Assembly: GCA_947628535.1 (NCBI GenBank)
Contig: CANRAF010000003.1
Coordinates: 33,953 to 97,952 of the forward strand
From: an uncultured Bacilli bacterium
GTDB taxonomy: Bacteria > Bacillota_I > Bacilli_A > RF39 > UBA660
Length of the DNA: 64,000 nucleotides
Direction: 5' to 3'
Within the stretch, counting starts at the first letter, position 1; every line of letters begins with the position of its first letter. The translations under genes were made by a program, and so were the position numbers. Positions 28,801 through 64,000 of this stretch are shown here, in pieces. Below the pieces are notes generated by a model. It did not search any database, was not told where the DNA came from, and saw nothing but the letters and a program-made list of their open reading frames with translations.

Positions 28801-30184
28801 TTTATTTGGAGAAGACCATGTATTTAGGGCTGGTACAATTGGTACAGTTGCTGATAAAACAGCTTTTGGTTTTGTAAAAGGTTATTATGAAGATAGAGGG
28901 ATTGAAGGAGTTAGACCTTTAGAAATAGAACGTTTAGCAATTGGAGTTACAGGCGTTAAAAGAACAACTGGACAGCATCCTGGGGGAATAGTAGTAGTTC
29001 CTGATTATAAAGAAATTTTTGATTTTACCCCTTATCAGTATCCGGCAGATGATGCTTCTGCTGAATGGGCAACTACACATTTTAATTATCATGATATTGA
29101 AGATTGTCTTTTAAAACTTGATATACTTGGGCACGATAATCCAACAATATTTAAAATGCTTTATGATCTTACTGGAATAGACCCTCAAACAGTACCAATG
29201 GATGATAAAGAAGTTATGAGTCTTTTTACCTCTACAAAAGCTCTTGGAGTAACTCCAGAACAGATAGATTGTGAAGTAGGATGTGTTGGGCTTCCAGAGT
29301 TTACTCGCTTTGTTATAGGGATAGTTTTAGAGACCAAACCTAAAACTTTTGCTGAACTTGTTAAAATTTCTGGACTTTCTCATGGTACTGATGTTTGGAA
29401 TGGTAATGCTCAGGAACTTGTTAGAAATAATATTTGTCCATTTAAAGAAACAATTGGTTGTCGTGATGATATTATGGTTTATTTAAGTAATCATGGAATA
29501 AAACCAATTGATGCGTTTAAAATAATGGAACTTGTCCGTAAAGGAAAACAAAAGAAAATGAAAGATAAGTGGGATGAGTATAAAAAACTTTTAAGGGATG
29601 CTAAAATTCCTGAATGGTATATAGAATCATGTGATAAGATTAAATACATGTTCCCTAAGGCTCATGCTACAGCTTATATTTCTGCTGCTTGGAGAATTGC
29701 TTGGTATAAAATAAATAGACCAATTGAATATTATGCTACGTTTTTCTCTATAAAAAGTTTTGCTTTTGATCTTGAAGCTATGGAACTTGGATATGATAAA
29801 ATTAAAGAGAGACTTAATGAACTTAAACTTAAAAAATTTGGACTTACTGTAAAAGAACAAGATTTGATATCAACTTTAGAAGTTGCTCTTGAAATGACTG
29901 CACGTGGGTTTAAATTTGGTAGTGTAGATTTAGAAAAAAGTCACTCTAAAAACTTTATTATAGAAGGTGATACTTTAATTCCACCTTTTAGAGCAATTGA
30001 TGGGCTTGGAGATGCAGTTGCAAATAATATAATAGTAGAAAGAGATAAGAAAAATTTTATAAGTATTGAAGAATTTCAAAAACGATGCAAAGTGTCTCTT
30101 TCTTTAACTGAAAAAATGAAACTTATGGGAATTTTAAGAAATTTACCAGAATCTAGTCAGCTTTCATTATTTGATTATGTGTAA
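25829..30184 (+). CDS. polC: DNA polymerase III alpha subunit, Gram-positive PolC type
   Basis: VELHTHTTMSQMDGV PHP, VVFDFETTGFNAGGGDSIIEVGAVKI exonuclease, VVGSRGSVGSSFVATMLGI, DIDLNFSGDYQARAHDYTK. Confidence 0.98.
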   Translation: MEARIEKLLKKINYPDEYFSCFNNALLEKIIVIEDKNTWNIYIKNDTNFKYEAISTFLKCLEDFTLNKYTYNIVVKTEKEDLELFPEYFKQILILINNNSLFLDMFSDRLIRENNDFYIEIYNKAEELTLNKKLDCIKTRFKNFGFKTMPSIRYNMGKGSFIKEEIKDLKKIDESKFEAIKSSKEKVSPKKDNKKGFTKGYERSNSKGFLGEVTGKITPLSDISYEIDNICIEAKIFGVVPSTKKDFYSLTLKVTDYTTSMYVRLFGRSEEEYEEMLSKFKEGMWIRVSGYVRNNSFYNDFVISARKTQIIEKEENIEMDEEEEKRVELHTHTTMSQMDGVVSVSDLINRAIKWGHKAIAITDHNAIQTFPVASKFKKDIKVLFGVELAMIDDDLDLVLREDESNLLDNTYVVFDFETTGFNAGGGDSIIEVGAVKIKNGEIIDTFDRLINPGKPLEEHIVKLTHITDDMLKDCPSEEEVIKEFIDWYGDLPMVAHNAKFDSSFLEMAYQKYNLGEYDNMLIDTLQLSRALDTEFSRHSLSALVKRYDIEFDEEGHHRADYDALATAKIFHKMLLKLKSRKIEKASEISLLVSKNDIHKFGELYHINILVKNKTGLKNLFKLVSYANTKYLYKTPRIIRSEVEKHREGLLIGSCCSNGEIFKQARSKSEEELSDLMNFYDFIEVQPPEVYSYLVDLSDFKNMDEVKDNISKIIKVADDKRKIVVATGDVHHLTRDDKIYREIIVNQKVPGGGMHPLNRKDIKNIPSMHFRTTKEMISDFSYLGDETAKKIVVTNTNKIADLIEEFEIIPDTKGIPFSPKFKDSDKTIRKICYDKATSIYGEKLPKIVEERLESELTGIINGGFDSIYLISQKLVEKSNKDGYVVGSRGSVGSSFVATMLGISEVNPLPAHYVCPKCKKSIFEYEDGTLFGKDYPSGYDLPDRKCECGEMMRKDGQDMPFATFLGFNADKVPDIDLNFSGDYQARAHDYTKVLFGEDHVFRAGTIGTVADKTAFGFVKGYYEDRGIEGVRPLEIERLAIGVTGVKRTTGQHPGGIVVVPDYKEIFDFTPYQYPADDASAEWATTHFNYHDIEDCLLKLDILGHDNPTIFKMLYDLTGIDPQTVPMDDKEVMSLFTSTKALGVTPEQIDCEVGCVGLPEFTRFVIGIVLETKPKTFAELVKISGLSHGTDVWNGNAQELVRNNICPFKETIGCRDDIMVYLSNHGIKPIDAFKIMELVRKGKQKKMKDKWDEYKKLLRDAKIPEWYIESCDKIKYMFPKAHATAYISAAWRIAWYKINRPIEYYATFFSIKSFAFDLEAMELGYDKIKERLNELKLKKFGLTVKEQDLISTLEVALEMTARGFKFGSVDLEKSHSKNFIIEGDTLIPPFRAIDGLGDAVANNIIVERDKKNFISIEEFQKRCKVSLSLTEKMKLMGILRNLPESSQLSLFDYV

Positions 30185-30205
30185 AGTTATAATAGATGAA
30201 AAAAT

Positions 30206-30242
30206 AAAGTGAAATATTAAGTAAAAATATTTTACTTTTTTT
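30206..30242 (+). terminator. Rho-independent terminator after polC
   Basis: AAAGTGAAATATT...AATATTTTACTTTTTTT. Confidence 0.75.
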
Positions 30243-30281
30243 ATATTTTATGGTAAATTTATACTATAGGAGGAATGGAAA

Positions 30282-30950
30282 ATGTCTGATGGTAATAAAG
30301 AGAAAAAAAGTGGAAAACTTACCTTTATAATTTTAGGAATAGTTATTTTGATTTTAGCTATGGGAGGTGTTGCACTTGCAACATATACTTGGAATTATAC
30401 AAGTAAGAATCCTAACAATATTAGTACAGGTAGTATTTCACTGAGTTTACTTGAATCGACAGATACTATTAGTATTGAAAATGCTCTTCCTATGTCTGAT
30501 GATAAAGGTAAAGTTTCAGGAGAAAAATTTGATTTTGCAGTTACAACTGAGGCAAGCGGTAATCCTGGTGATATAAAGTATAAATTATCTATTACTGAAG
30601 TAGATGAATTAGATGAAGGCTATACAAAACTTGATAAAAGTAATGTTAAAATTTATTTAACAGTTCTAGAAGATGATCAAGAAAATGGAACTACAGAAAC
30701 AGAAGTTGTTGCGCCTACTAAGGTAGATAGCATTATAACTGAAGAAAATGGTGAAGGAACTTTGACATTTACAAAAGAAGAATATTTAAAACATACTCAT
30801 AATGAGGTTAATAAAGAAATAACAACGAAATATAGACTTAGAATGTGGATAGCTGATGATACTGATGCTTCAAACTGGGATGATAGTAATCAAAAAAATC
30901 AATATAAATTAAAGATTGGTGCATCTGGGACTATAGCACCTATTAGTTAA
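30282..30950 (+). CDS. SipW-dependent TasA/camelysin-like protein, type A copy 1
   Basis: VALATYTWNYTSKNPNNISTGSISLSLLESTDTISIENALPMSDDKGK; KYRLRMWIADDTDASNW; GGAGGAA RBS. Confidence 0.75.
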   Translation: MSDGNKEKKSGKLTFIILGIVILILAMGGVALATYTWNYTSKNPNNISTGSISLSLLESTDTISIENALPMSDDKGKVSGEKFDFAVTTEASGNPGDIKYKLSITEVDELDEGYTKLDKSNVKIYLTVLEDDQENGTTETEVVAPTKVDSIITEENGEGTLTFTKEEYLKHTHNEVNKEITTKYRLRMWIADDTDASNWDDSNQKNQYKLKIGASGTIAPIS

Positions 30951-30967
30951 ATTAAAGGGGTGGAGAT

Positions 30968-31720
30968 ATGGATAATAAAAAAGTTTTAGCTATTTCAATT
31001 ACTGCAGTTGTCGTTTTAGTGCTAGCATTAGCAGCAACATCATATGCAATGTTTTCAGCCAATCTTACTGGTAGTAAAGAAAATGAACTTACTACAGGTT
31101 ATGTAACTTTAAATTGTACAGAAAAAACATTTGAACTTGAAAATACTAGTCCAATGAACGATACAGAGGGTATTGCTCTTGAAAATAATGCAGCTGAATG
31201 CACTTTAACATCGGAAATGAAGGGTACAATGACAATAGGTTATGATATAGCATTAGATGGTGTTGATACTAAAACGCCAGAAGATGGTATTACTGAAGAC
31301 AATGTAAAAATTCAAGTTTCTAAAACAATTACAGAACCAGAACAAGGACAACTTGAATATTTATTAAAAACCAATAATACAGAGGGTATTTATGTTAGTA
31401 CAATAAAGGAATCCAAAGGACAATATGACAGATCAATTGATGGTTATAAACTGGATTCTGATACTATAACAGGTAATAAGAAAATTGTTTATAAAATTGT
31501 AGCCTGGGTTTCAAATGAACAGGCTGAAAATACACGAATTAATGATTCAAATATAGTATTAGATGAAAATGGAAAATGTAGTAATTCATCTTATACGGAT
31601 AAAGATACTTGTGAAAATGCAAGTGAAATTTGGGGAGATAGTAAAAAATCTACTCAAGAAGGAGGAACATTTAGTTTTAAACTTAAAATAGGAGCAACTC
31701 AAGTATTGGAAAATAATTAA
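30968..31720 (+). CDS. SipW-dependent TasA-like protein, type B copy 1
   Basis: TSYAMFSANLTGSKENELTTGYVTLNC...ENTSPMNDTEGIALENNAAECTL; C-terminal CSNSSYTDKDTCENASEIWGD and GGTFSFKLKIGATQVL. Confidence 0.75.
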   Translation: MDNKKVLAISITAVVVLVLALAATSYAMFSANLTGSKENELTTGYVTLNCTEKTFELENTSPMNDTEGIALENNAAECTLTSEMKGTMTIGYDIALDGVDTKTPEDGITEDNVKIQVSKTITEPEQGQLEYLLKTNNTEGIYVSTIKESKGQYDRSIDGYKLDSDTITGNKKIVYKIVAWVSNEQAENTRINDSNIVLDENGKCSNSSYTDKDTCENASEIWGDSKKSTQEGGTFSFKLKIGATQVLENN

Positions 31721-31761
31721 TACATTTTGCTTTTTGTTATTATATATGGGAGGAATCTTAA

Positions 31762-32445
31762 ATGTTTGAAGAAGAACCTAAGGAAAATCATAGAGCGTCA
31801 TTTACAATTTTAGGAATATTTGTTCTTTTGTTAACAGTAGTAGGTGTTGCTATAGCGGCATATACTTGGACTTATACAAGTAATAATGCAAATAGTATTA
31901 GTACAGGTAATATTTCAATGAGTTTACTTGAATCAACAGATACTATTAGTATTGAAAATGCTTTACCTATGTCAGATGATAAGGGAAAACAGTTAAAAAA
32001 TAATGGAACTTTTGATTTTGCTGTTACAACTGAAGCAAGTGGACAACCTGGTGATATAAATTATAAATTATCTATTACTGAAGATAATGCTGACTCAGAT
32101 TATACTTTGCTTAATAAAGAGCAAGTTAAGGTTTATTTAACTGTGTTAACAAATAATGAAGATGCCGAAAATGAAGTTTTGGAAACACAAGTTGTAAAAC
32201 CTACTAAAGTTAGTGATATTATTACTGAAAATAGCGATAATGAAACAGGGGTTTTAACCTTTGATGAAGGGCAAACACAACATCTTACTCATCACCATAA
32301 TAAAATAGGTGAAACTATAACAACAAAATATAGACTTAGAATGTGGATATCTGATGATGTCGATGCTTCAAATTGGAATGAAAGCACTAAATATCAATAT
32401 AAATTAAAAATAAATGCTTCAGGAAGTATAGATCCTATACAATAA
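31762..32445 (+). CDS. SipW-dependent TasA/camelysin-like protein, type A copy 2
   Basis: AAYTWTYTSNNANSISTGNISMSLLESTDTISIENALPMSDDKGK; KYRLRMWISDDVDASNW. Confidence 0.75.
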   Translation: MFEEEPKENHRASFTILGIFVLLLTVVGVAIAAYTWTYTSNNANSISTGNISMSLLESTDTISIENALPMSDDKGKQLKNNGTFDFAVTTEASGQPGDINYKLSITEDNADSDYTLLNKEQVKVYLTVLTNNEDAENEVLETQVVKPTKVSDIITENSDNETGVLTFDEGQTQHLTHHHNKIGETITTKYRLRMWISDDVDASNWNESTKYQYKLKINASGSIDPIQ

Positions 32446-32465
32446 TCTTTAGTGAGGTGAAAATT

Positions 32466-33221
32466 ATGGATAATAAAAAAGTTTTGACTATATCAATAGT
32501 TGCCGTTGTAGTTTTAGTTATTGCAATAATTTCAACATCTTATGCAACTTTTTCAGCACAAATTTCAGGGGAAAAAGAAAATAAATTAACAACAGGATAT
32601 GTAACATTAAAATGTGATGAAGAAGTTTTTACACTTAATGATACAAGTCCAATGACAGATGAAGAGGGAATAGCTCTTGAAAGTAATGAGGCGGTATGTA
32701 CTTTATCTTCTGAAATGAAAGGTGAGATGACCGTTGGATATGATATAGCATTAGATGATGTAGATGCTGAAACACCAGATGATGATTTAACAGAAAATGA
32801 TGTAAAAGTTCAAATTTATAAAATAACTAATGAACAAGATCCAGCACAAACAAAATATTTGCAAGGTACTAGTGAAAATACTGGAACGTATATTGCTAAT
32901 TTAAAAGAAAAATCTGGAACATACGATACTGAGAGTGTTGAAAATTATCTAATTGATTCTGACAAGATTACTGGTACTACTCAAGTTATATATAAAGTAA
33001 AGGCGTGGGTATCTAATAATAAAAATGGTGTAGAAAATATTCAAACTAATTCTGTTACTAATAGTGATGATGGTGTTTGTAGTAATTCTGAATATAATAC
33101 TCAAGCAGAATGTGAATCTGCAGGAGAAGTTTGGGGGAATAGTCAAAAATCTACTCAGACAGGAGGAACATTTAGTTTTAAACTTAAAATAGGGGCAACC
33201 CAAATATTAGAAGATGAATAA
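32466..33221 (+). CDS. SipW-dependent TasA-like protein, type B copy 2
   Basis: TSYATFSAQISGEKENKLTTGYVTLKC...CSNSEYNTQAECESAGEVWGN...GGTFSFKLKIGATQIL; ATG 32466 after GAGGTGA. Confidence 0.75.
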   Translation: MDNKKVLTISIVAVVVLVIAIISTSYATFSAQISGEKENKLTTGYVTLKCDEEVFTLNDTSPMTDEEGIALESNEAVCTLSSEMKGEMTVGYDIALDDVDAETPDDDLTENDVKVQIYKITNEQDPAQTKYLQGTSENTGTYIANLKEKSGTYDTESVENYLIDSDKITGTTQVIYKVKAWVSNNKNGVENIQTNSVTNSDDGVCSNSEYNTQAECESAGEVWGNSQKSTQTGGTFSFKLKIGATQILEDE

Positions 33222-33248
33222 AAGTAAAAAGCATTTTACTTTTTTTTA
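33221..33248 (+). terminator. Rho-independent terminator after A2/B2
   Basis: AAAAGTAAAA-agc-ATTTTACTTTTTTTT. Confidence 0.7.
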
Positions 33249-33285
33249 TTTATATGATAAATTTATATTATAGGAGGAATAGAAA

Positions 33286-33966
33286 ATGTTTGAGGAAAAA
33301 GAGAAAAATAAAAACCGCGGTTTAACATTTACTATTTTGGGAATATTTGTTTTATTATTAACTAGTGCAGGTATTGCTATTGCAGTATATACTTGGAATT
33401 ACACAAGTGATGAGAATAGAATAAGTACAGGTGACATTTCAATGAGTTTACTTGAATCAACAGATGTTATTAGTATTGAAAATGCTTTGCCTATGTCAGA
33501 TACAAAGGGGAAACAATTAGGAAAAAATGAATCTTTTGATTTTGCAGTTACTACGTATGCAAGTGGAAAACCTGGAGATATAAATTATAGTATATCAATT
33601 ACAGAAGATGCAGTTGATGAAGGGTATACTAAACTTGGAAGTGAAAATGTTAAAGTATATTTAACAGTTTTGCCTGAAAAGAGAAATGATGCGTATCAAC
33701 AAGAAATAGAAGTTGTTGCACCTACTAAAGTAAGTGAAATTATAAAAGAAAATAATACTGGTAATTTTACTTTTAAAGATGAACAATATTCTAAACATTC
33801 GCATACTTCTTCTGGTTCCACTATAACAACAAAATATAGACTTAGAATGTGGGTAGATAGCGAAGTAGATGCAAGCGATTGGAAAAAAGATTCTGATTCT
33901 AAATATCAATATAAATTAAAAATAGGGACTGCTGGCAGTATTAAACCTATTGGAGTAGTTGAGTGA
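33286..33966 (+). CDS. SipW-dependent TasA/camelysin-like protein, type A copy 3
   Basis: AVYTWNYTSDENRISTGDISMSLLESTDVISIENALPMSDTKGK; KYRLRMWVDSEVDASDW. Confidence 0.75.
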   Translation: MFEEKEKNKNRGLTFTILGIFVLLLTSAGIAIAVYTWNYTSDENRISTGDISMSLLESTDVISIENALPMSDTKGKQLGKNESFDFAVTTYASGKPGDINYSISITEDAVDEGYTKLGSENVKVYLTVLPEKRNDAYQQEIEVVAPTKVSEIIKENNTGNFTFKDEQYSKHSHTSSGSTITTKYRLRMWVDSEVDASDWKKDSDSKYQYKLKIGTAGSIKPIGVVE

Positions 33967-33979
33967 GGAAGGTATAATT

Positions 33980-34741
33980 ATGAGTAATAAAAAAATAATG
34001 GTATTATCAGTAGTTTCAGTCATAGTTTTAGTAATAGCGATAGTTGCAACATCATATGCAATGTTTACAGCAAATCTTAGTGGTACTAAAGCAAATGAAT
34101 TAACAACAGGATATGTAACTTTAAATTGTGAAGAAACAACATTTAAACTTGAAGATACAAGCCCAATGACAGATGCAGATGGTATAAAAATGGAAAATAA
34201 TGAGGCAATATGTAAGCTTACATCAACAATGAAGGGTACAATGACAATTGGATATGATATAGCGTTAGATGTGATTGATGAATCCCAAGAAGATGGGGTT
34301 AATGAAGATAATGTAAAAATCCAGGTTACTAAGTCAACTAAGGGAGCTGAGGAGCAACCAAAGTATTTACTAGAAACTGATGCTAATAAAGGAGTATACA
34401 TTAGTTCAATTCAGGATGAAACTGGGCAATATAATGATGATGAAGATCAGGGTTACAATTTAGATAGTGATACTATAACAGGTGATACAGAAATAACTTA
34501 TAAAATTAAAACCTGGGTTTCAAATTTAAAAACTACAGGAGCAGATGAGGAGGAAGTACCTAATATAAATGAAAGCAGTAGTTCTAGCACTTGTAGTAAT
34601 CCTCAGCTTAAAACAAAAGAGGAGTGTCAATCTGCTGGTGAGATTTGGGGAGATGAACAAACATCTACTCAAAAAGGAGGAACATTTAGTTTTAAACTTA
34701 AAATAACTGCAACTCAAGTATTAAGCGATAGTGGTGAATAA
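33980..34741 (+). CDS. SipW-dependent TasA-like protein, type B copy 3
   Basis: TSYAMFTANLSGTKANELTTGYVTLNC...CSNPQLKTKEECQSAGEIWGD...GGTFSFKLKITATQVL. Confidence 0.75.
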   Translation: MSNKKIMVLSVVSVIVLVIAIVATSYAMFTANLSGTKANELTTGYVTLNCEETTFKLEDTSPMTDADGIKMENNEAICKLTSTMKGTMTIGYDIALDVIDESQEDGVNEDNVKIQVTKSTKGAEEQPKYLLETDANKGVYISSIQDETGQYNDDEDQGYNLDSDTITGDTEITYKIKTWVSNLKTTGADEEEVPNINESSSSSTCSNPQLKTKEECQSAGEIWGDEQTSTQKGGTFSFKLKITATQVLSDSGE

Positions 34742-34756
34742 AATTTAATTTATTAA

Positions 34757-34787
34757 GAGAAGATTTTTAGTAAAAACTTCTCTTTTT
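34757..34787 (+). terminator. Rho-independent terminator
   Basis: AGAGAAGATTTTTAGTAAAAACTTCTCTTTTTT. Confidence 0.75.
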
Positions 34788-34871
34788 TATATATTAATTT
34801 AAATTTATTAAATATTATAAATAATTTTATTTTTCGACATATAATTTAATGTAAATAAGAAAGGAGAAAAA

Positions 34872-35531
34872 ATGAAAAAAAGAATTTTATTTATAATATC
34901 ACTATTTTTAATGATTACTGCTTTTATACCAAATGTTTTTGCAGCAACATATGGAGCTGTTACAGTTTTAACAAATCCAGATGATGTTGAAATAGTAACC
35001 AATAGGGGAAAGACTACTATTACTTATAAAAACCCTATAGATATTCAAATAGCAGAAGAGGATGAAACACTTGGAAGACCAGGTGGTTCTGGATGGCTTG
35101 GAATGAGAATAAACGCTCCATCAGACAGCAATGAAAATAGTTTAAAAGATGCAACATATTATTCAATTGTAGAAGGTGTTGGAGAATCTAAAGCTACTGC
35201 AGAAGTTAAAAAATTTTTAGATAAAAGAGATGGAAGTTGGTATATTGATATTTGGAGTGGTATTAGTCTTGATAGAATAAGAGAGGCTGAACAGAATAAT
35301 CTTAATTCAATTACAAGAGATTGGTATTTTGACTGGGATGGAAATGGAGTTTACGAACAAGAAGTTACAGTAGTTATGCCACTTATAAATATAAATTTAA
35401 CTGATGAAAATGGAAATGTTTTATATACTCCTGAAAGTATGAGCGAAAAAGTCAAAACTGAAAAATTGGATAATATACCGAAAACAGGATTTATTTATGC
35501 AATAGTAAATTATTTAAGTTATTTATTTTAA
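34872..35531 (+). CDS. secreted protein with C-terminal IPKTG motif
   Basis: Signal peptide MKKRILFIISLFLMITAFIPNVFAA; C-terminus KLDNIPKTGFIYAIVNYLSYLF; AAGGAG RBS. Confidence 0.65.
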   Translation: MKKRILFIISLFLMITAFIPNVFAATYGAVTVLTNPDDVEIVTNRGKTTITYKNPIDIQIAEEDETLGRPGGSGWLGMRINAPSDSNENSLKDATYYSIVEGVGESKATAEVKKFLDKRDGSWYIDIWSGISLDRIREAEQNNLNSITRDWYFDWDGNGVYEQEVTVVMPLININLTDENGNVLYTPESMSEKVKTEKLDNIPKTGFIYAIVNYLSYLF

Positions 35532-35534
35532 TGA

Positions 35535-35580
35535 GAAAGACTTTTAGATTTTGTTATTAAAATCTTTAATAGTCTTTTTT
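35535..35580 (+). terminator. Rho-independent terminator
   Basis: AAAGACT...AGATTTT-gttatt-AAAATCT...AGTCTTTTTT. Confidence 0.75.
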
Positions 35581-35611
35581 ATGTCAAAAAAGTATAAAAA
35601 TATAAAACAAC

Positions 35612-35641
35612 TTGACAATGCCCGGGGGGGGGTGATATTAT
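35612..35641 (+). promoter_or_regulatory. candidate phase-variable promoter: TTGACA, spacer with G9, TATTAT
   Basis: TTGACA 35612-35617; G9 at 35624-35632; TATTAT 35636-35641 (18-bp spacer) or GATATT 35634-35639 (16-bp spacer). Confidence 0.7.
35624..35632 (+). repeat. poly-G tract (9 G)
   Basis: CCC followed by nine G in an AT-rich intergenic region. Confidence 0.95.
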
Positions 35642-35667
35642 ATATGTATAAATATGAAAGGAGAGAT

Positions 35668-36654
35668 ATGATGAAAAAGAAAATATTGTTTATGGCATTT
35701 GCATTTGTAGTAAGCATGTTCATTGTTCCAAATGTTTTTGCAGCTAGTGTATCTGATATTAAATCATGGGGAGAAACAGGAACACATATTAAAGTTGAAG
35801 GAAGTGATAATAATTATACACTTACTTTAACAGGTGAACCAAAACAAGATCTTATTATTTCACAAGGAGAAACAGTTACCATTGATTTAGCAGGGCATAC
35901 ATTAACTAATTATACTAACAATAATTCTGTTATTACAATTAATTCAGGTGCTACAGTTACTATTATTGATAGTAGTAATGACGGAAAAATTAGTCTAAAA
36001 AGTGATGATAATGGCACTGCTCCAGTTATAAATAATGCTGGTACTTTAACTCTAGAAAATGGAACTATTGATTCTACTAAGGCTGGAAGTACAGGAATTT
36101 ATAACAGTGGAACATTAACAGTTGCTGGTGGAGAAGTTAAAACAAGTGTAAATGGCGCATGGGGTCTTACTAATGTAGGAACTGCGACTATTACAGATGG
36201 AACATTTACTCAAGGAAATGACTTTTCAGTAGTACTTAATGCAGGTACAATGACAGTTGAAGGTGGAAATTTTGTTGCTGCAGATGGTGGTTCACATAAT
36301 TCATTAATTACAAATAAAAACGATGATGGAACTGCTAGTATGACAATTAATGGAGGAACATTTGATAGTACAGGAATTTTCTATAATGAAGATGGAGATA
36401 GCATAGTAATAACAAGTGGAAATTTCGCAAGTGATGTTTCTGAGTACTTAGCTGATGGTCTAGTAATGGAACAAGATGAAGATGGTAATTTTATAGTAGT
36501 AGATGCTCCAGAAATACCTGACGATAATACAAATAGTGAAGAAAATAATTCTACTACTGTTGTAAACAAAGTTATAGATAAAACAAAACTTGATGATGTA
36601 CCAAAAACAGGAAGTATTTATTCAGTATTAAATTTCATGAATTATTTAAGATAA
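35668..36654 (+). CDS. surface protein, beta-helix-like repeats, C-terminal VPKTG motif
   Basis: Start MMKKKILFMAFAFVVSMFIVPNVFAA after AAAGGAG; repeated GTxTxxxGTxx/GGTF strands; C-terminus KLDDVPKTGSIYSVLNFMNYLR. The ORF-track start at 35551 is upstream of the promoter. Confidence 0.7.
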   Translation: MMKKKILFMAFAFVVSMFIVPNVFAASVSDIKSWGETGTHIKVEGSDNNYTLTLTGEPKQDLIISQGETVTIDLAGHTLTNYTNNNSVITINSGATVTIIDSSNDGKISLKSDDNGTAPVINNAGTLTLENGTIDSTKAGSTGIYNSGTLTVAGGEVKTSVNGAWGLTNVGTATITDGTFTQGNDFSVVLNAGTMTVEGGNFVAADGGSHNSLITNKNDDGTASMTINGGTFDSTGIFYNEDGDSIVITSGNFASDVSEYLADGLVMEQDEDGNFIVVDAPEIPDDNTNSEENNSTTVVNKVIDKTKLDDVPKTGSIYSVLNFMNYLR

Positions 36655-36659
36655 TAAAT

Positions 36660-36700
36660 AAGACTATTGAATATAATGTTTCAATAGTCTTTTTTTTGTG
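36660..36700 (+). terminator. Rho-independent terminator
   Basis: AAGACTATTGAAtataatgTTTCAATAGTCTTTTTTTT. Confidence 0.8.
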
Positions 36701-36733
36701 TGTAAATATAAAATATGACAAAAATAAAATAAC

Positions 36734-36762
36734 TTGACAATACCCGGGGGGGGGGTGATAAT
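36734..36762 (+). promoter_or_regulatory. candidate phase-variable promoter: TTGACA, 17-bp spacer with G10, GATAAT
   Basis: TTGACA 36734-36739; G10 at 36746-36755; GATAAT 36757-36762. Confidence 0.72.
36746..36755 (+). repeat. poly-G tract (10 G)
   Basis: CCC followed by ten G. Confidence 0.95.
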
Positions 36763-36785
36763 ATATTTATAGAAAGGAGATAATT

Positions 36786-37808
36786 ATGAAAAATATTAAA
36801 TTTATGTTAGTGGCAGCTATATTTGCAGTATTTGGAATGGTAAGTGTAAATGCAGCAACACCACAAAATCTTTTAGATTGGAAGGTAGCAGATGGAACAT
36901 GTAGTAATAATGTTTGTGATTTAAAATTAAATCAAAAGGCGGTTCAAGATTTAGAAATTGGCGCTGGGCAAGTGGTTACACTTGATTTAAATGGCTTTGA
37001 ATTTACTAATTTTTCTGATGGTACATCAAATAAAGGTAAATTATCAGCTATTTGGATACTTTCTGGAGGAGAACTAACTATTAAAGATACGAATAGTAAT
37101 GGTACTGGGAAAGTATATATTTCAGGTGATGATACACTTCCTGCAGTTAATAACCTTGAAGGTGGAAAATTAACTATTGAAGGAGGTATTTTCGAAGCTA
37201 GAAAAGCCGGAGGAGATGCTATTCATAATAGTGGTGAATTAACATTTACAAATGGTACAGTAAAAACTACAGTAGATGGCGCATGGGGATTAGTAAATGA
37301 AGGTACAGCAGTAATCAACGGAGGAACATTTGATCAAGGAAATGATTATTCCGTAGTACTTAATGCTAAAGATATGACTATAAATGATGGAACATTCAAT
37401 GCTACTGGTGCAGGACATAATGCTGTTGTTAGTAACGTTGGTAAATCTTCAGATGCTCCAGCAAAACTTACTGTTACTGGAGGAGATTTTAATGCAGAAG
37501 ATAATGCTAAAATATTTTCTAATGGATTAAATGATGAAGGTGAGAATAGCACAATAGCTGTTAGTGGCGGTACATTTTCAAACGAACTAAAAGCAGAATA
37601 TTTAGCAGATGGTTTAGTAATGGAACAAGATGAAGATGGTAACTTTGTATTAGTAACTGAACCTGATGAACCAATTGATGATCCTTCAAATGATGAAAAT
37701 AATTCTACTACTATTGTAAACAAAGTTTTAGATAAAACAAAACTTGACGATGTTCCAAAAACAGGAAGTGTTTATTCAGCATTAAGTTTTATGAAATATT
37801 TAAGATAA
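36786..37808 (+). CDS. surface protein, beta-helix-like repeats, C-terminal VPKTG motif (paralog of 35668-36654)
   Basis: Signal peptide MKNIKFMLVAAIFAVFGMVSVNAA; DGAWGLVNEGTAVINGGTFDQGNDYSVVLNAKDMTINDGTFNA; C-terminus KLDDVPKTGSVYSALSFMKYLR; GAAAGGAG RBS. Confidence 0.72.
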   Translation: MKNIKFMLVAAIFAVFGMVSVNAATPQNLLDWKVADGTCSNNVCDLKLNQKAVQDLEIGAGQVVTLDLNGFEFTNFSDGTSNKGKLSAIWILSGGELTIKDTNSNGTGKVYISGDDTLPAVNNLEGGKLTIEGGIFEARKAGGDAIHNSGELTFTNGTVKTTVDGAWGLVNEGTAVINGGTFDQGNDYSVVLNAKDMTINDGTFNATGAGHNAVVSNVGKSSDAPAKLTVTGGDFNAEDNAKIFSNGLNDEGENSTIAVSGGTFSNELKAEYLADGLVMEQDEDGNFVLVTEPDEPIDDPSNDENNSTTIVNKVLDKTKLDDVPKTGSVYSALSFMKYLR

Positions 37809-37813
37809 TATAA

Positions 37814-37855
37814 AAGACTACTTGAAATTATTGTTTCAAATAGTCTTTTTTTTGT
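37814..37855 (+). terminator. Rho-independent terminator
   Basis: AAAGACTACTTGAAAttattgTTTCAAATAGTCTTTTTTTT. Confidence 0.75.
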
Positions 37856-37863
37856 GTTAATTA

Positions 37864-38061
37864 TTATTCGTTTTCCTCAACACTAATAGCGCCTGTAGGA
37901 CAGTTTTCTTTTGCATCTTTTACTAAATCTTTATTATTATCTTTTACTTTACTATTTAGTGCATATGCAATACCGTTATCATTTATGTCAAATTCATCAG
38001 GAACTAAAGCTGCACAAGCTCCACATCCAATACATAAATTATCTACTACTTTTACTTTCAT
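37864..38061 (-). CDS. 4Fe-4S single-cluster ferredoxin
   Basis: CIGCGACAALVPDEFDI...CPTGAI; 65 aa. Confidence 0.92.
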   Translation of the reverse strand: MKVKVVDNLCIGCGACAALVPDEFDINDNGIAYALNSKVKDNNKDLVKDAKENCPTGAISVEENE

Positions 38062-38166
38062 TTTTACCTCCTAAAAATATTATATAATAAAAAATTCAAA
38101 AAATAAAATGTTTTCTTTTTTTATTATTTATGTTATAATTTTTATAGTCAATGATAGGGTGATTTT

Positions 38167-39108
38167 ATGTATAGTAGAATGGAAAAATATGATGTAGATT
38201 CAACTGAAAAAAAGAGAACTACAAGAAATGAAAAACTATATAGTGAAGTACAAAATATGAATATAGATTATGTTGATATTAATGTTGATAATGCTGTTGA
38301 ACTTTCTGCGAATAATAATGGAAAGTCATCTCGTGAAGATTTTCAAAAGCAACGTGAACTTGATAAAATTTTACCAAGACATGAAAAAAGCAGTAAAATA
38401 GTGTCAACTGAAGTTGAGCCTAAAGAAGATAGAGTTTATGATATTGATGAAATTTTGAAAATGGCTAGAGAGAATAAACTTTTTGAAGATGCTGATAAAA
38501 AAAGATTAATTAATACAGAATATAATATTTTAACGAAACTTGATGTTCAATCATTAAAAACTGAAGAGATGAAGAAAGAAGATTTACGTAATTTAATTGA
38601 TGATATATATTCAAAAGAAAAAAAACCTGAGAGAAAAAAATATCCACGTAAAGTGGAAGAGAGACTACTTAATGATTTGTTTGATGATTATGAAAGGGAA
38701 CCTGAACTTGATGAAGAATTAAAATTACAAGAAGAGGTAAGTGAAGGGGTTCTTAATAATATTTCTTTAAACGATAATTCTGAAAATAATATAGCTGCAA
38801 ATGAATCTTCAGAAGAAAGCGATAAACAAATAACTGAAGAGGAAGACAAGACTGAAGATGCTAGTATTGCAACGTTGATTGGAAAAGATAAATTTTCTAA
38901 GAAAGAAAAAAAGAAAAATAAAAAAGAGAAAAAAAATAAAATAGGTGATTTTGAAGAAGAATTTAATGACAAAAAAAATGAAGAAGTATATGATGATTAT
39001 ATAGAAGAAAAAGAAGGTAAGGGCCTTTTAATTGCAATTATAGTAGTTGTTATATTAATAGTAATTACATGTGGTTTCTTTGTTTATGAATACTTTTTTG
39101 GATTATAA
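38167..39108 (+). CDS. acidic/charged protein with C-terminal TM anchor, unknown function
   Basis: Charged N-terminal region of ~285 aa and C-terminal LLIAIIVVVILIVITCGFFVYEYFF; GGGTGAT RBS. Confidence 0.6.
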   Translation: MYSRMEKYDVDSTEKKRTTRNEKLYSEVQNMNIDYVDINVDNAVELSANNNGKSSREDFQKQRELDKILPRHEKSSKIVSTEVEPKEDRVYDIDEILKMARENKLFEDADKKRLINTEYNILTKLDVQSLKTEEMKKEDLRNLIDDIYSKEKKPERKKYPRKVEERLLNDLFDDYEREPELDEELKLQEEVSEGVLNNISLNDNSENNIAANESSEESDKQITEEEDKTEDASIATLIGKDKFSKKEKKKNKKEKKNKIGDFEEEFNDKKNEEVYDDYIEEKEGKGLLIAIIVVVILIVITCGFFVYEYFFGL

Positions 39109-39119
39109 TTAATAAACAG

Positions 39120-39168
39120 AAAAAAAACATTCAAAGTTATGTTTAAACTAATGATTGAATGTTTTTTT
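39120..39168. terminator. bidirectional terminator
   Basis: AAAAAAACATTCAA...TTGAATGTTTTTTTT between convergent genes. Confidence 0.7.
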
Positions 39169-39602
39169 TAATCTATTCTTCCACATAACCAGTCAAGAGA
39201 TATGTTGTATTTTTTAGCAATATCATAAGCAAATGCTGTTAAAAGCATTGTTTTTCCGTTTTCATAGGCACTTATAGTTGAATGAGATGTATTAAGTTCT
39301 GCAGCTAATTGTTCTTGGGTTAAACCGCTTGTTTTCCTAAAACTTTTTAAACGTTTACCAATTAATTCTTTATTAATTTTTTTATTTGTAATAATATAGT
39401 TTTTTTCACTATTTAAACCAGTTATATAATCCATACTAACATTAAAGTAATTACAAAGATTATTTAAATGAGTAAGAGGAATTATTGCTTCATCAGTTTC
39501 CCATCTTCCATAAGTTGATTTTGAAACGCCCATAATTTCAGCCATTTTTATTTGGTTTAAATCATTTAAATCTCTAAGATCTTTAATTTTTATAAGTAAC
39601 AT
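39168..39602 (-). CDS. XRE-type regulator with two HTH domains
   Basis: LNQIKMAEIMGVSKSTYGRWETDEAIIP and LTQEQLAAELNTSHSTISAYENGKT; M at 39602. Confidence 0.85.
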   Translation of the reverse strand: MLLIKIKDLRDLNDLNQIKMAEIMGVSKSTYGRWETDEAIIPLTHLNNLCNYFNVSMDYITGLNSEKNYIITNKKINKELIGKRLKSFRKTSGLTQEQLAAELNTSHSTISAYENGKTMLLTAFAYDIAKKYNISLDWLCGRID

Positions 39603-39703
39603 ATAACCACCTACATATAATTTTCTCATTAAATAAGTAAATAAACATTTTCTCCCCTTATATACGACATCGGTGATATAATTAATAAAAGGAGATATTT
39701 AAT

Positions 39704-40174
39704 ATGGAGAAAAGTTTTGTAAAAATAGATAGTTTAGGAAGGATAGTAATACCTAAAAAAATTAGAAAAAGTTTTTCTATTAATTCTAATTCAGTTTTAA
39801 ATATGGAAATAGCTAATGAAGAGATATATTTTAAAATTGATAAAAATGTTGATAATAAAAATACAATCAATAAAATTAAAATATTGGAAAGATTGTCAAA
39901 TTTAAAATTTATTGTTTTAGATAATAATCAAATAATATATAGCACAAAGATTTTAGGAAGTAAGGATAAAATAAAAGTAAGCAGTATAAAAGAAGTTTTA
40001 AGCAAAGAAAACGAAAGCTATAATGGCATATTAAAAATTACTGATAAATTATCAGTAAGTAACTATTATTATTCTATTTTGAATTTAAATAATTATACTA
40101 AAATTTTAGTAATAGTAATTTATAGTGAAAAGCAAGAAAAATCATTAGCTAAAATAGTTGCAGAATTTTTATAA
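39704..40174 (+). CDS. AbrB/SpoVT-like transcriptional regulator
   Basis: MEKSFVKIDSLGRIVIPKKIRKSFSINSNSVLNM swapped-hairpin DNA-binding domain plus C-terminal sensor-like domain. Confidence 0.8.
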   Translation: MEKSFVKIDSLGRIVIPKKIRKSFSINSNSVLNMEIANEEIYFKIDKNVDNKNTINKIKILERLSNLKFIVLDNNQIIYSTKILGSKDKIKVSSIKEVLSKENESYNGILKITDKLSVSNYYYSILNLNNYTKILVIVIYSEKQEKSLAKIVAEFL

Positions 40175-40179
40175 TATTT

Positions 40180-40641
40180 TTATTTATTATATTCCTTTAT
40201 TAACATCTCATCGGATCTTCCATATAAATAGTCCATAGATACTTTATATTTTTTAGATATTTCATAGGCTACTCTTGTAATCATTTTAGTTTTTCCTGTT
40301 TCGTATGCACTTATTGTAGAGTGTGATGTATTAAGTTCTGATGCTAATTTTTCTTGGGTTAAATTAAAATGTTTTCTAAATGTTTTTAATCTTCTACCAA
40401 TTAATTCTTTATTTAATTTTTTACTTGTAATAGGTATTTGTCTTACTTTAGTAAATTTTGAAGCGTAATCCATACTTATATTAAAATAATTGCAAAAGGT
40501 ATTTAAATGTTCTGAGGGAATTATCTCTTCATCTGAATCCCATTTGCTATAAGTAGATGCAGAAATACCAATTATTTTTGCCATTTTTGCCTGAGTTAAA
40601 TCATGATCTTCCCTTATATCCCTTATTCTTCCATATGCCAT
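40180..40641 (-). CDS. XRE-type regulator with two HTH domains (paralog of 39168-39602)
   Basis: LTQAKMAKIIGISASTYSKWDSDEEIIPSEHLNTFCNYFNISMDY and LTQEKLASELNTSHSTISAYETGKT. Confidence 0.85.
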   Translation of the reverse strand: MAYGRIRDIREDHDLTQAKMAKIIGISASTYSKWDSDEEIIPSEHLNTFCNYFNISMDYASKFTKVRQIPITSKKLNKELIGRRLKTFRKHFNLTQEKLASELNTSHSTISAYETGKTKMITRVAYEISKKYKVSMDYLYGRSDEMLIKEYNK

Positions 40642-40737
40642 ATAACCACCTATAATAATTGTCTCATTAAAAGGTTAAATCATTATTTGTTCCCCTATAA
40701 TACGACAAATATGATATAATTATTATGGTGATGTAAA

Positions 40738-41160
40738 ATGATAGAAAATATGCAAATAAAAGTAGATGCCTCAGGGAGAATTTTAATTCCTAAAAAAGTT
40801 AGAGATATATTTGATATAAATAAAGATGATATTTTTCTTTTAACTACTTTTGATGATGGATTTAAATTAGTAAAAGAGAAAGGTTTAGAAAAATATAATG
40901 AAGTTATTTCTAAAATAAAAAAAATAGAGATTGAATATAATTTTGACATAATTTTAACTGATTATGAAAAAGTTATTTATACAAGTGATAAGTATAAAAA
41001 TATTATTGGTAAAAAGCTAGATAATAATTTTAAATTAAAGGATTTATCTTTAAAAAAGGATATTAAATTAGATAAATATAGAAGAGGAAATATAATTATT
41101 ATTTATAAAAATAAAGAATATTTAAATATTGCTAGAATTGTTTGTGAACTTTTGAAGTAA
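40738..41160 (+). CDS. AbrB/SpoVT-like transcriptional regulator (paralog of 39704-40174)
   Basis: MQIKVDASGRILIPKKVRDIFDINKDDIFLL AbrB motif; matching C-terminal region. Confidence 0.8.
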   Translation: MIENMQIKVDASGRILIPKKVRDIFDINKDDIFLLTTFDDGFKLVKEKGLEKYNEVISKIKKIEIEYNFDIILTDYEKVIYTSDKYKNIIGKKLDNNFKLKDLSLKKDIKLDKYRRGNIIIIYKNKEYLNIARIVCELLK

Positions 41161-41264
41161 TATTATGATAGGCAAGTAAAATAGAAAAGCAAATTAATGA
41201 ATTAATTTTGACATAACTTACTTTAATATGTTAAAATTGTAATAGTTTGAAAGAAGGGATTATT

Positions 41265-42164
41265 ATGGATCAAAGTTCTGAAAGTGCTCTAACACTTTTA
41301 CAAAATCTTAGAATGCTTTTAAAAGAAAAAGAATCTAATGATAAGCGTTATACTACAATTAGAATAAGTGCAGATGATGCAATGAAGAAAATAGAAACAA
41401 CACTTTCTAAAACTCCCTCTCAATATCATGAAGAGATTTTAGAAAAGGCTATTTATTTTACCGAATATAAAATGAATAAAAAAATATTAGATTGTAATGA
41501 TATATTTATGGCCCTTACTACTTATGTAGAGGATGTTAAGAAAAATCTTTTAGATGATAAATATACTACTCCTGAAATTGAAAGAATGAATTATATTCGT
41601 GGGACAAAAGATGTAATAGATAAATTTTTGGCTGTTCTTAAAGATTATAATAGATATGAACTTATTAGTTATGAAGAAAACTGCAATAAACTTTTAAAGG
41701 AAAGGACTTCTGTTTATGGACGAAAAACAGCAAGTGGAGGAATTATTGGGGCTTTAAATCGTGGTATGTATGGGCAAACTAGAGAAGAATTTATAGATGA
41801 ACTTAGAGAAGACGGTGTCAAATTAAGCTCTAATACGAGATTTATTCGTTCTATGAGTAATGAACTTATAAAATATAGAATAGTTGGACTTTATATAGCT
41901 TCTAAATATTGTGATAGGATAGAAGAAAGATGGAAAAAAAATGCTACAGATAGTGACTCTAATACAGCTTTAAAAGATTATAATGAGGCTAAAGTAAAAA
42001 CAAAAATTTTGGGTGGAATTTTAAAAGATGTTTATTCTGAAAAATATAATATAACTCCTAAAGATGAAATAAAAAATCATCTTTTTGATGGCGACCAAAC
42101 AGTAATGGATTTTATGACTACTAAAAGCGAGAGTGATAAGAATAACCAATCTCCTAAAAGATAA
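41265..42164 (+). CDS. hypothetical protein
   Basis: 300 aa ORF, start MDQSSESALTLLQNLRMLL with GAAGGGA RBS. Confidence 0.6.
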   Translation: MDQSSESALTLLQNLRMLLKEKESNDKRYTTIRISADDAMKKIETTLSKTPSQYHEEILEKAIYFTEYKMNKKILDCNDIFMALTTYVEDVKKNLLDDKYTTPEIERMNYIRGTKDVIDKFLAVLKDYNRYELISYEENCNKLLKERTSVYGRKTASGGIIGALNRGMYGQTREEFIDELREDGVKLSSNTRFIRSMSNELIKYRIVGLYIASKYCDRIEERWKKNATDSDSNTALKDYNEAKVKTKILGGILKDVYSEKYNITPKDEIKNHLFDGDQTVMDFMTTKSESDKNNQSPKR

Positions 42165-63419: not shown

Positions 63420-64000
63420 ATGAAGAAAATATTGTCTGGGGGGGGGGTATTAAATAAAGTAAAAGAATACTTATCAAAAGATATAAAAGAATATAATAAA
63501 GTATTCTTAGGTTTAGTATGTTTAATAATTCTAATGACAGCAGTATTTACATCACTTAAGATATCAAATTCATATGCAATATTTACAGATAGTATAAAAG
63601 GAAAGGAAACAATCACATTAACACTAGATAAGAATTTGGATAAAAGTGGGGCAAATAAGCCCGTTCTTTCTGATGCAATGGTACCAGTATATTATAGTGA
63701 TACAGACAAACAATGGCATAAGGCAGACGAAAATAATGAAGAGAAAGATTATAAATGGTATGACTATGATAAAAAGATGTGGGCAAACACTGTAACATAT
63801 GATCATACAAAATTATCAAATGAAAGTAAAACAAAAATAGAGGGAAAGACATTCAATGGAACAAGCGATTATGTAGATATGGGACATGAAAATGAGGATT
63901 TTGGTAATACAATCACTTTAGTGGCAAGATTTTCTTCAAATGGATATACTAGCAATGGTGGGCCATTGATAGATAATTCTGCCAATCCACAAGGTTTTGA
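63420..64000 (+). CDS. phase-variable SipW-type/LamG-like surface protein (partial, open to right edge)
   Basis: MKKILSGGGVLNKVKEYLSKDIKEYNKVFLGLVCLIILMTAVFTSLKISNSYAIFTDSIKGKETITLTLDKN...FNGTSDYVDMGHENEDFGNTITLVARFSSNG. Continuous with 10 G; absent from the ORF track because no stop lies in the window. Confidence 0.75.
   Translation, partial: MKKILSGGGVLNKVKEYLSKDIKEYNKVFLGLVCLIILMTAVFTSLKISNSYAIFTDSIKGKETITLTLDKNLDKSGANKPVLSDAMVPVYYSDTDKQWHKADENNEEKDYKWYDYDKKMWANTVTYDHTKLSNESKTKIEGKTFNGTSDYVDMGHENEDFGNTITLVARFSSNGYTSNGGPLIDNSANPQGF
63438..63447 (+). repeat. poly-G tract (10 G) within codons 7-10
   Basis: ATG AAG AAA ATA TTG TCT GGG GGG GGG GTA TTA AAT. Confidence 0.95.

Follow-up and report, generated by a model that had tools for sequence, protein, structure and literature searches.

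Poly-G tracts in promoter spacers of predicted surface-protein genes point to slipped-strand phase variation in a small uncultured Bacilli genome

Results

The paralogous gene pair and its surroundings

The window, that is, the whole 64-kb stretch of DNA analyzed here (26% GC), contains two adjacent paralogous genes for predicted exported proteins, each preceded by a promoter with a run of G residues in its spacer (Table 1). The 340-residue product of the downstream gene is predicted to fold into a β-helix-like repeat region (mean pLDDT 71, with values above 80 in most ten-residue blocks of residues 31–180) and a low-confidence tail ending VPKTG...R. The segment that runs from VPKTG to this terminal R is shorter than in classical LPXTG signals, and four sortase genes are present in the genome. 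A sequence search of the PDB with this protein gave no match, a fold search with the predicted structure returned nothing at E ≤ 0.001 and weak β-helix likeness only, and an Rfam search of positions 30000–42000 gave no structural RNA match. As proposed in an earlier note on this DNA, the promoter of the downstream gene is a second and independent one, and the analysis shows that each gene has its own promoter and that an intrinsic terminator separates them; the layout AACTTGACAATRCCCG(n)TGATA is common to both promoters. The same layout recurs, slightly altered, at loci on C1, C9, C12, and C16.

A third gene, whose product has an IPKTG C terminus, is located just upstream of the pair (34872–35531) and is without a poly-G promoter. 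Farther upstream, a tandem array (30282–34741) encodes six exported-type proteins of 222–260 residues, arranged as three alternating pairs, with N termini that recall camelysin/TasA-type proteins and with no Pfam family above the cut-off.

Table 1. Coordinates of genes, promoter elements, and G tracts in the window
Feature	Position	Strand	Basis or remark
−35 element of the neighboring paralog	35612–35617	+	sequence
G9 tract of the neighboring paralog; −10 is GATATT at 16 bp or TATTAT at 18 bp	35624–35632	+	
328-residue paralog, 50% identical, same C-terminal motif	35668–36654	+	
Intrinsic terminator that splits the pair into separate transcription units	36660–36691	+	
−35 element TTGACA	36734–36739	+	sequence; common to 12 tract promoters of the genome
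G10 tract within the promoter spacer	36746–36755	+	sequence
−10 candidate B, TGA-TAATAT (TGn plus hexamer 36759–36764), spacer 19 bp	36756–36764	+	scoring; parallels elsewhere
−10 candidate A, GATAAT, spacer 17 bp	36757–36762	+	reading of the earlier note; scoring
Ribosome-binding site AAAGGAG	36773–36779	+	sequence
340-residue predicted exported protein: signal peptide, β-helix-like repeats, C-terminal VPKTG sorting-type motif	36786–37808	+	
Third G10 tract of the window, codons 7–10 of the adhesin-like ORF starting at 63420	63438–63447	+	in frame at this length

Promoter anatomy and the choice of −10 element

The G10 tract at 36746–36755 is located between the −35 and −10 elements of a recognizable σ70-type promoter, the arrangement of porA/opc-type loci; it exceeds the length expected by chance and falls in the unstable range (≥8). 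The order TTGACA, ATACCC, ten G, T, and GATAAT, with 17 bp between the hexamers, was given correctly in the earlier note in both coordinates and tract length, as were the nine G and the alternative 16- and 18-bp spacers of the neighbor. The double reading of the −10 element that is seen in the neighbor applies also to the 36734 promoter, a point absent from that note. Scored with an approximate textbook matrix, GATAAT at 17 bp obtains 3.1 and TGn-TAATAT at 19 bp obtains 2.3 without credit for the TG, and in the neighbor, TATTAT at 18 bp with its TG obtains 3.6 as compared with 1.8 for GATATT at 16 bp. In a separate ranking, the 18-bp form of the neighbor (TATTAT with upstream TG) and the 17-bp form of the 36734 promoter are equal, each at 11 of 12.

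The later hexamer is favored by a locus in the same genome, C2:73522 (TTG-TATAAT, spacer 19 bp), and by two relatives, G111 (TGG-TATAAT, 19–21 bp) and G400 (TGA-TATAAT, 19 bp). A paralog on C12 has a spacer free of poly-G, in which TTGACA is followed after 18 bp by GATAGT or after 20 bp by TAGTAT; considered as an arbiter, this promoter leans toward the earlier hexamer and is not decisive. It had been argued that a 17-bp spacer, as the optimum, makes the 36734 copy the better candidate for the ON state. The −10 element is ambiguous in both promoters (17 or 19 bp in this one), and the modal poly-G spacer of relatives with an unambiguous TATAAT is 19 rather than 17 bp; therefore, neither 17 bp as the optimum nor the ON state proposed for this copy is supported, and the stronger copy could be either of the two, depending on how the −10 element is read.

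G tracts of the window and the genome

In the window, G runs of length 5, 6, 7, 8, 9, and 10 occur 11, 2, 0, 0, 1, and 2 times, respectively. Chance is excluded as their source, because the G runs vanish at lengths 7–8 and reappear at 9–10, and C runs never exceed length 4. In addition, GGGGGGGG has 8 matches as compared with 0.13 expected from shuffles, and Markov models fitted to the window predict 0.07–0.45 G runs of ≥9 on both strands of the whole 933-kb genome, which has ~23 runs of ≥8, ~21 of them 9–11 long.

The genome combines several independent tracts of two kinds: ~12 that separate TTGACA from a −10-like hexamer and ~10 inside genes, mostly surface-protein genes. The products of the genes behind the tract promoters include VPKTG-ending proteins, proteins with SH3_3 repeats, prepilin-type N_methyl proteins, zinc-ribbon membrane proteins, and, by a weak match, one BspA-type LRR_5 protein. 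The signal peptide, the VPKTG C terminus, the sortases, and an enrichment for export all point to surface or secreted determinants as the controlled genes. An N-terminal hydrophobic export-type segment is found in 64 of 82 ORFs with a poly-G promoter (78%) versus 163 of 503 others (32%; p ~1e-14, with heuristic start calls and with related paralogs kept in).

The second group of tracts occupies codons 7–10 of ORFs that start ATG(or GTG)AAGAAAWT...; the one scanned ORF of this group contains a LamG domain. Among the six genes with readable downstream frames, the tract is in frame in four and out of frame in two, so that both ON- and OFF-frame tracts are observed ahead of intact ORFs. The two out-of-frame genes, C1:148019 and C5:17667, are shifted by tract length alone, and their ORFs stay intact over 988 and 929 codons, a combination that is the signature of a putatively switchable gene. 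The adhesin-like ORF of the window (63420–64000) runs off the contig end, and its tract is absent from the earlier note. Other coding tracts include a G10 at about codons 73–82 of the twin ORFs C4:40084 and C4:43386 (~520 residues each, 3.3 kb apart, the tract lying in an otherwise near-identical stretch), a G10 located after a membrane segment on C15, and a G8 at C4:25590 within an ordinary-looking ORF.

Recurrence and tract-length differences among relatives

Searches that demanded exact hexamers, with one genome per species, covered 390 family genomes and found TTGACA-N5-10-G8+-N0-2-KADAWT in 48 of them, representing 33 of 152 genera, and the reversed-pattern control gave 0 matches in the family genomes. 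Among the MAGs of the family are some deposited under the names "uncultured Bacilli bacterium" (Lapin-027__bin79) and "uncultured Bacillales bacterium." Flanks are unlike between genera, which makes a repeated origin or a fast turnover of the tracts probable. The sister species G003 has tracts of its own: three promoters of the form TTGATT-8/9-G10-TATAAT, with spacers of 18, 18, and 19 bp, and two genes that carry an out-of-frame tract at the start. The four sister species G001–G004 yielded no homolog of the 340-residue protein, by which orthologs with a locked promoter in these species are dismissed.

Identical flanks with differing G lengths occur inside one genome in at least 17 flank sets from 14 genomes, the differences being between paralogous promoters of single genomes. 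These differences bear on the idea that the tract is a fixed-length spacer, selected for promoter geometry as a means of tuning strength and conserved without switching. Such an idea would fit the near-uniform G9 among the matches listed for three relatives (9 of 10 in G146, 7 of 8 in G327, and all in G389), which also counts against a fast switch, and the presence of a full-length MutS, which counts against fast slippage. It would not account for varying lengths on identical flanks or for out-of-frame tracts in intact genes of the same genome, a homopolymer is unnecessary for a fixed spacer, and the C12 paralog has a spacer free of poly-G; a fixed spacer is therefore quite improbable. Because MutS is present, switching rates may be moderate, and loss of MutS is ruled out as a cause of instability.

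Some genomes depart from the common layout: in genera g102 and g169 (G108, G389, G175, and G279), the tract adjoins the −35 element (TTGACATG9..TATAAT), with a uniform G9 and a spacer of 16 bp, unlike the 19-bp majority. A scan of named genomes also placed the pattern, among the matches listed, in Clostridia, Saccharibacteria, Treponema, Streptococcus suis, Streptobacillus, and others; part of these matches outside the family will be due to chance. Nine viral contigs (L236–L244) carry a matching poly-G promoter pattern and could represent phase-variable phage or host genes, or chance.

Strand preference and spacer length

The G form of the pattern is present in 26 of 196 family genomes, in at least 111 promoters, and the C-for-G version in 0 of 196. 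As judged from these genomes, G-only usage is a feature of the lineage, since poly-C switches exist elsewhere (opc). The same counts speak against a sequencing or assembly artefact, in which two-color poly-G signals or homopolymer miscalls would create the tracts. The assembly is of the metagenome type, several contigs end at or near tracts (C12 and C19, and also in G003), and exact counts such as 9 versus 10 may be one off; yet in the host genome it is always the coding strand that has the G run, the position is always a functional one (promoter spacer or gene start), similar tracts with other flanks are seen in dozens of separate assemblies, and both the poly-C mirror and the reversed controls are empty, which leaves an artefact scarcely credible.

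Poly-G spacers differ from ordinary ones in length. In three relatives, ordinary TTGACA...TATAAT pairs peak at 17 bp (23 at 16, 42 at 17, and 27 at 18), whereas poly-G promoters in these three genomes have spacers of 18–21 bp (3, 6, 7, and 1; Mann-Whitney p ~3e-8, with paralogous copies counted separately). A wide-range search of 46 genomes gave 102 distinct poly-G spacers among the matches listed, including 37 of 19 bp, 19 of 18 bp, 15 of 20 bp, 13 of 16 bp, and 5 of 17 bp, and the per-genome median differs from 17 (p ~9e-6, 46 genomes). The mode at 19 bp can be read in two ways: most promoters may have settled at a weak length, or the optimum may be displaced by the G run. The lower rise and twist of A-form-like poly(dG) would act toward a displaced optimum.

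Both this displaced mode and the strict strand preference would be expected if the effect of the tract came chiefly from DNA or RNA structure (an A-form-like duplex, or a special part played by the non-template G strand) and not from its use as a length ruler. As a counterpoint, by the usual rule of four G runs, an intramolecular quadruplex is precluded for a single run of G9–G10. Spacer switches of the opc type, built of poly-C, show that coding-strand G is not generally required (PMC3447861), and a mainly structural role is judged improbable. A wider proposal is tentative and rather doubtful: that the poly-G spacer defines a specialized promoter class, in which a G run on the non-template strand moves the best −35/−10 distance from 17 to ~19 bp and G length sets a graded strength, with as many as two dozen surface genes in one genome wired to it, so that an uncultured, apparently non-pathogenic lineage would match pathogens in the richness of its phasome.

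Discussion

The genome-wide and family-wide evidence strongly supports a phase-variable promoter, in line with the different expression states suggested in the earlier note. Very probably, the core promoter has in its G10 run a simple-sequence contingency switch, with slipped-strand phase variation that acts through the −35/−10 spacing in a porA-like manner. G residues would be gained or lost through slipped-strand mispairing at replication, and with each change in tract length the −35 and −10 boxes would shift in both distance and angular phase relative to each other, such that initiation by the σA RNA polymerase would be good at one or two lengths and poor at others. Each cell lineage would then express or silence the predicted surface protein independently of its neighbor and of ~20 other tract-controlled genes. 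Very probably, this tiny uncultured bacterium turns surface proteins on and off by slippage.

The known cases of slippage-driven surface-protein switching come mainly from pathogens, the meningococcus among them. The genes porA, opc, and fetA of Neisseria are described as phase variable through a homopolymer between the −10 and −35 elements, and one-base changes in the poly-G run of porA are reported to alter transcription (PMC2791445; PMC3899988). The locus described here is similar to porA of Neisseria meningitidis in having a G run between the −35 and −10 elements of a surface-protein gene. It differs in its setting, an AT-rich uncultured Bacilli genome with ~12 such promoters in 0.93 Mb, a TTGACA −35 element, and a 17- or 19-bp reading, and its switching is a prediction from sequence. 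Similarly, opc and fetA carry a repeat in the same position; the opc tract is poly-C, and its lengthening from 11 to 12 C raises Opc expression (PMC3447861), whereas the family studied here uses coding-strand G only and has no poly-C equivalent in the 196 genomes. Campylobacter- and Neisseria-type phasomes likewise comprise numerous poly-G tracts in a single genome, some of them inside ORFs whose ON/OFF state depends on the frame, and mostly in surface determinants (PMC6321876, PMC5953494). Those phasomes belong to Gram-negative, well-studied pathogens or their relatives, in contrast to the uncultured Bacilli considered here, with their sortases, LamG-type adhesins, and prepilin-like proteins. 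Within a set of open-access papers, no relevant account of poly-G phase variation turned up for RF39, Saccharibacteria, or Bacillota. The kind of switch is already known, and its scale in uncultured Bacilli appears to be undescribed.

More than 100 natural promoters with spacers 2 bp off the canonical length offer material on how spacer geometry sets the strength of σ70 promoters. With respect to the organisms, the findings would add small uncultured Bacilli to the bacteria with slippage-driven phase variation at many loci. It has been asked whether genomes of this type are truly confined to pathogens (PMC11868660), and this lineage is a candidate counter-example to such a confinement.
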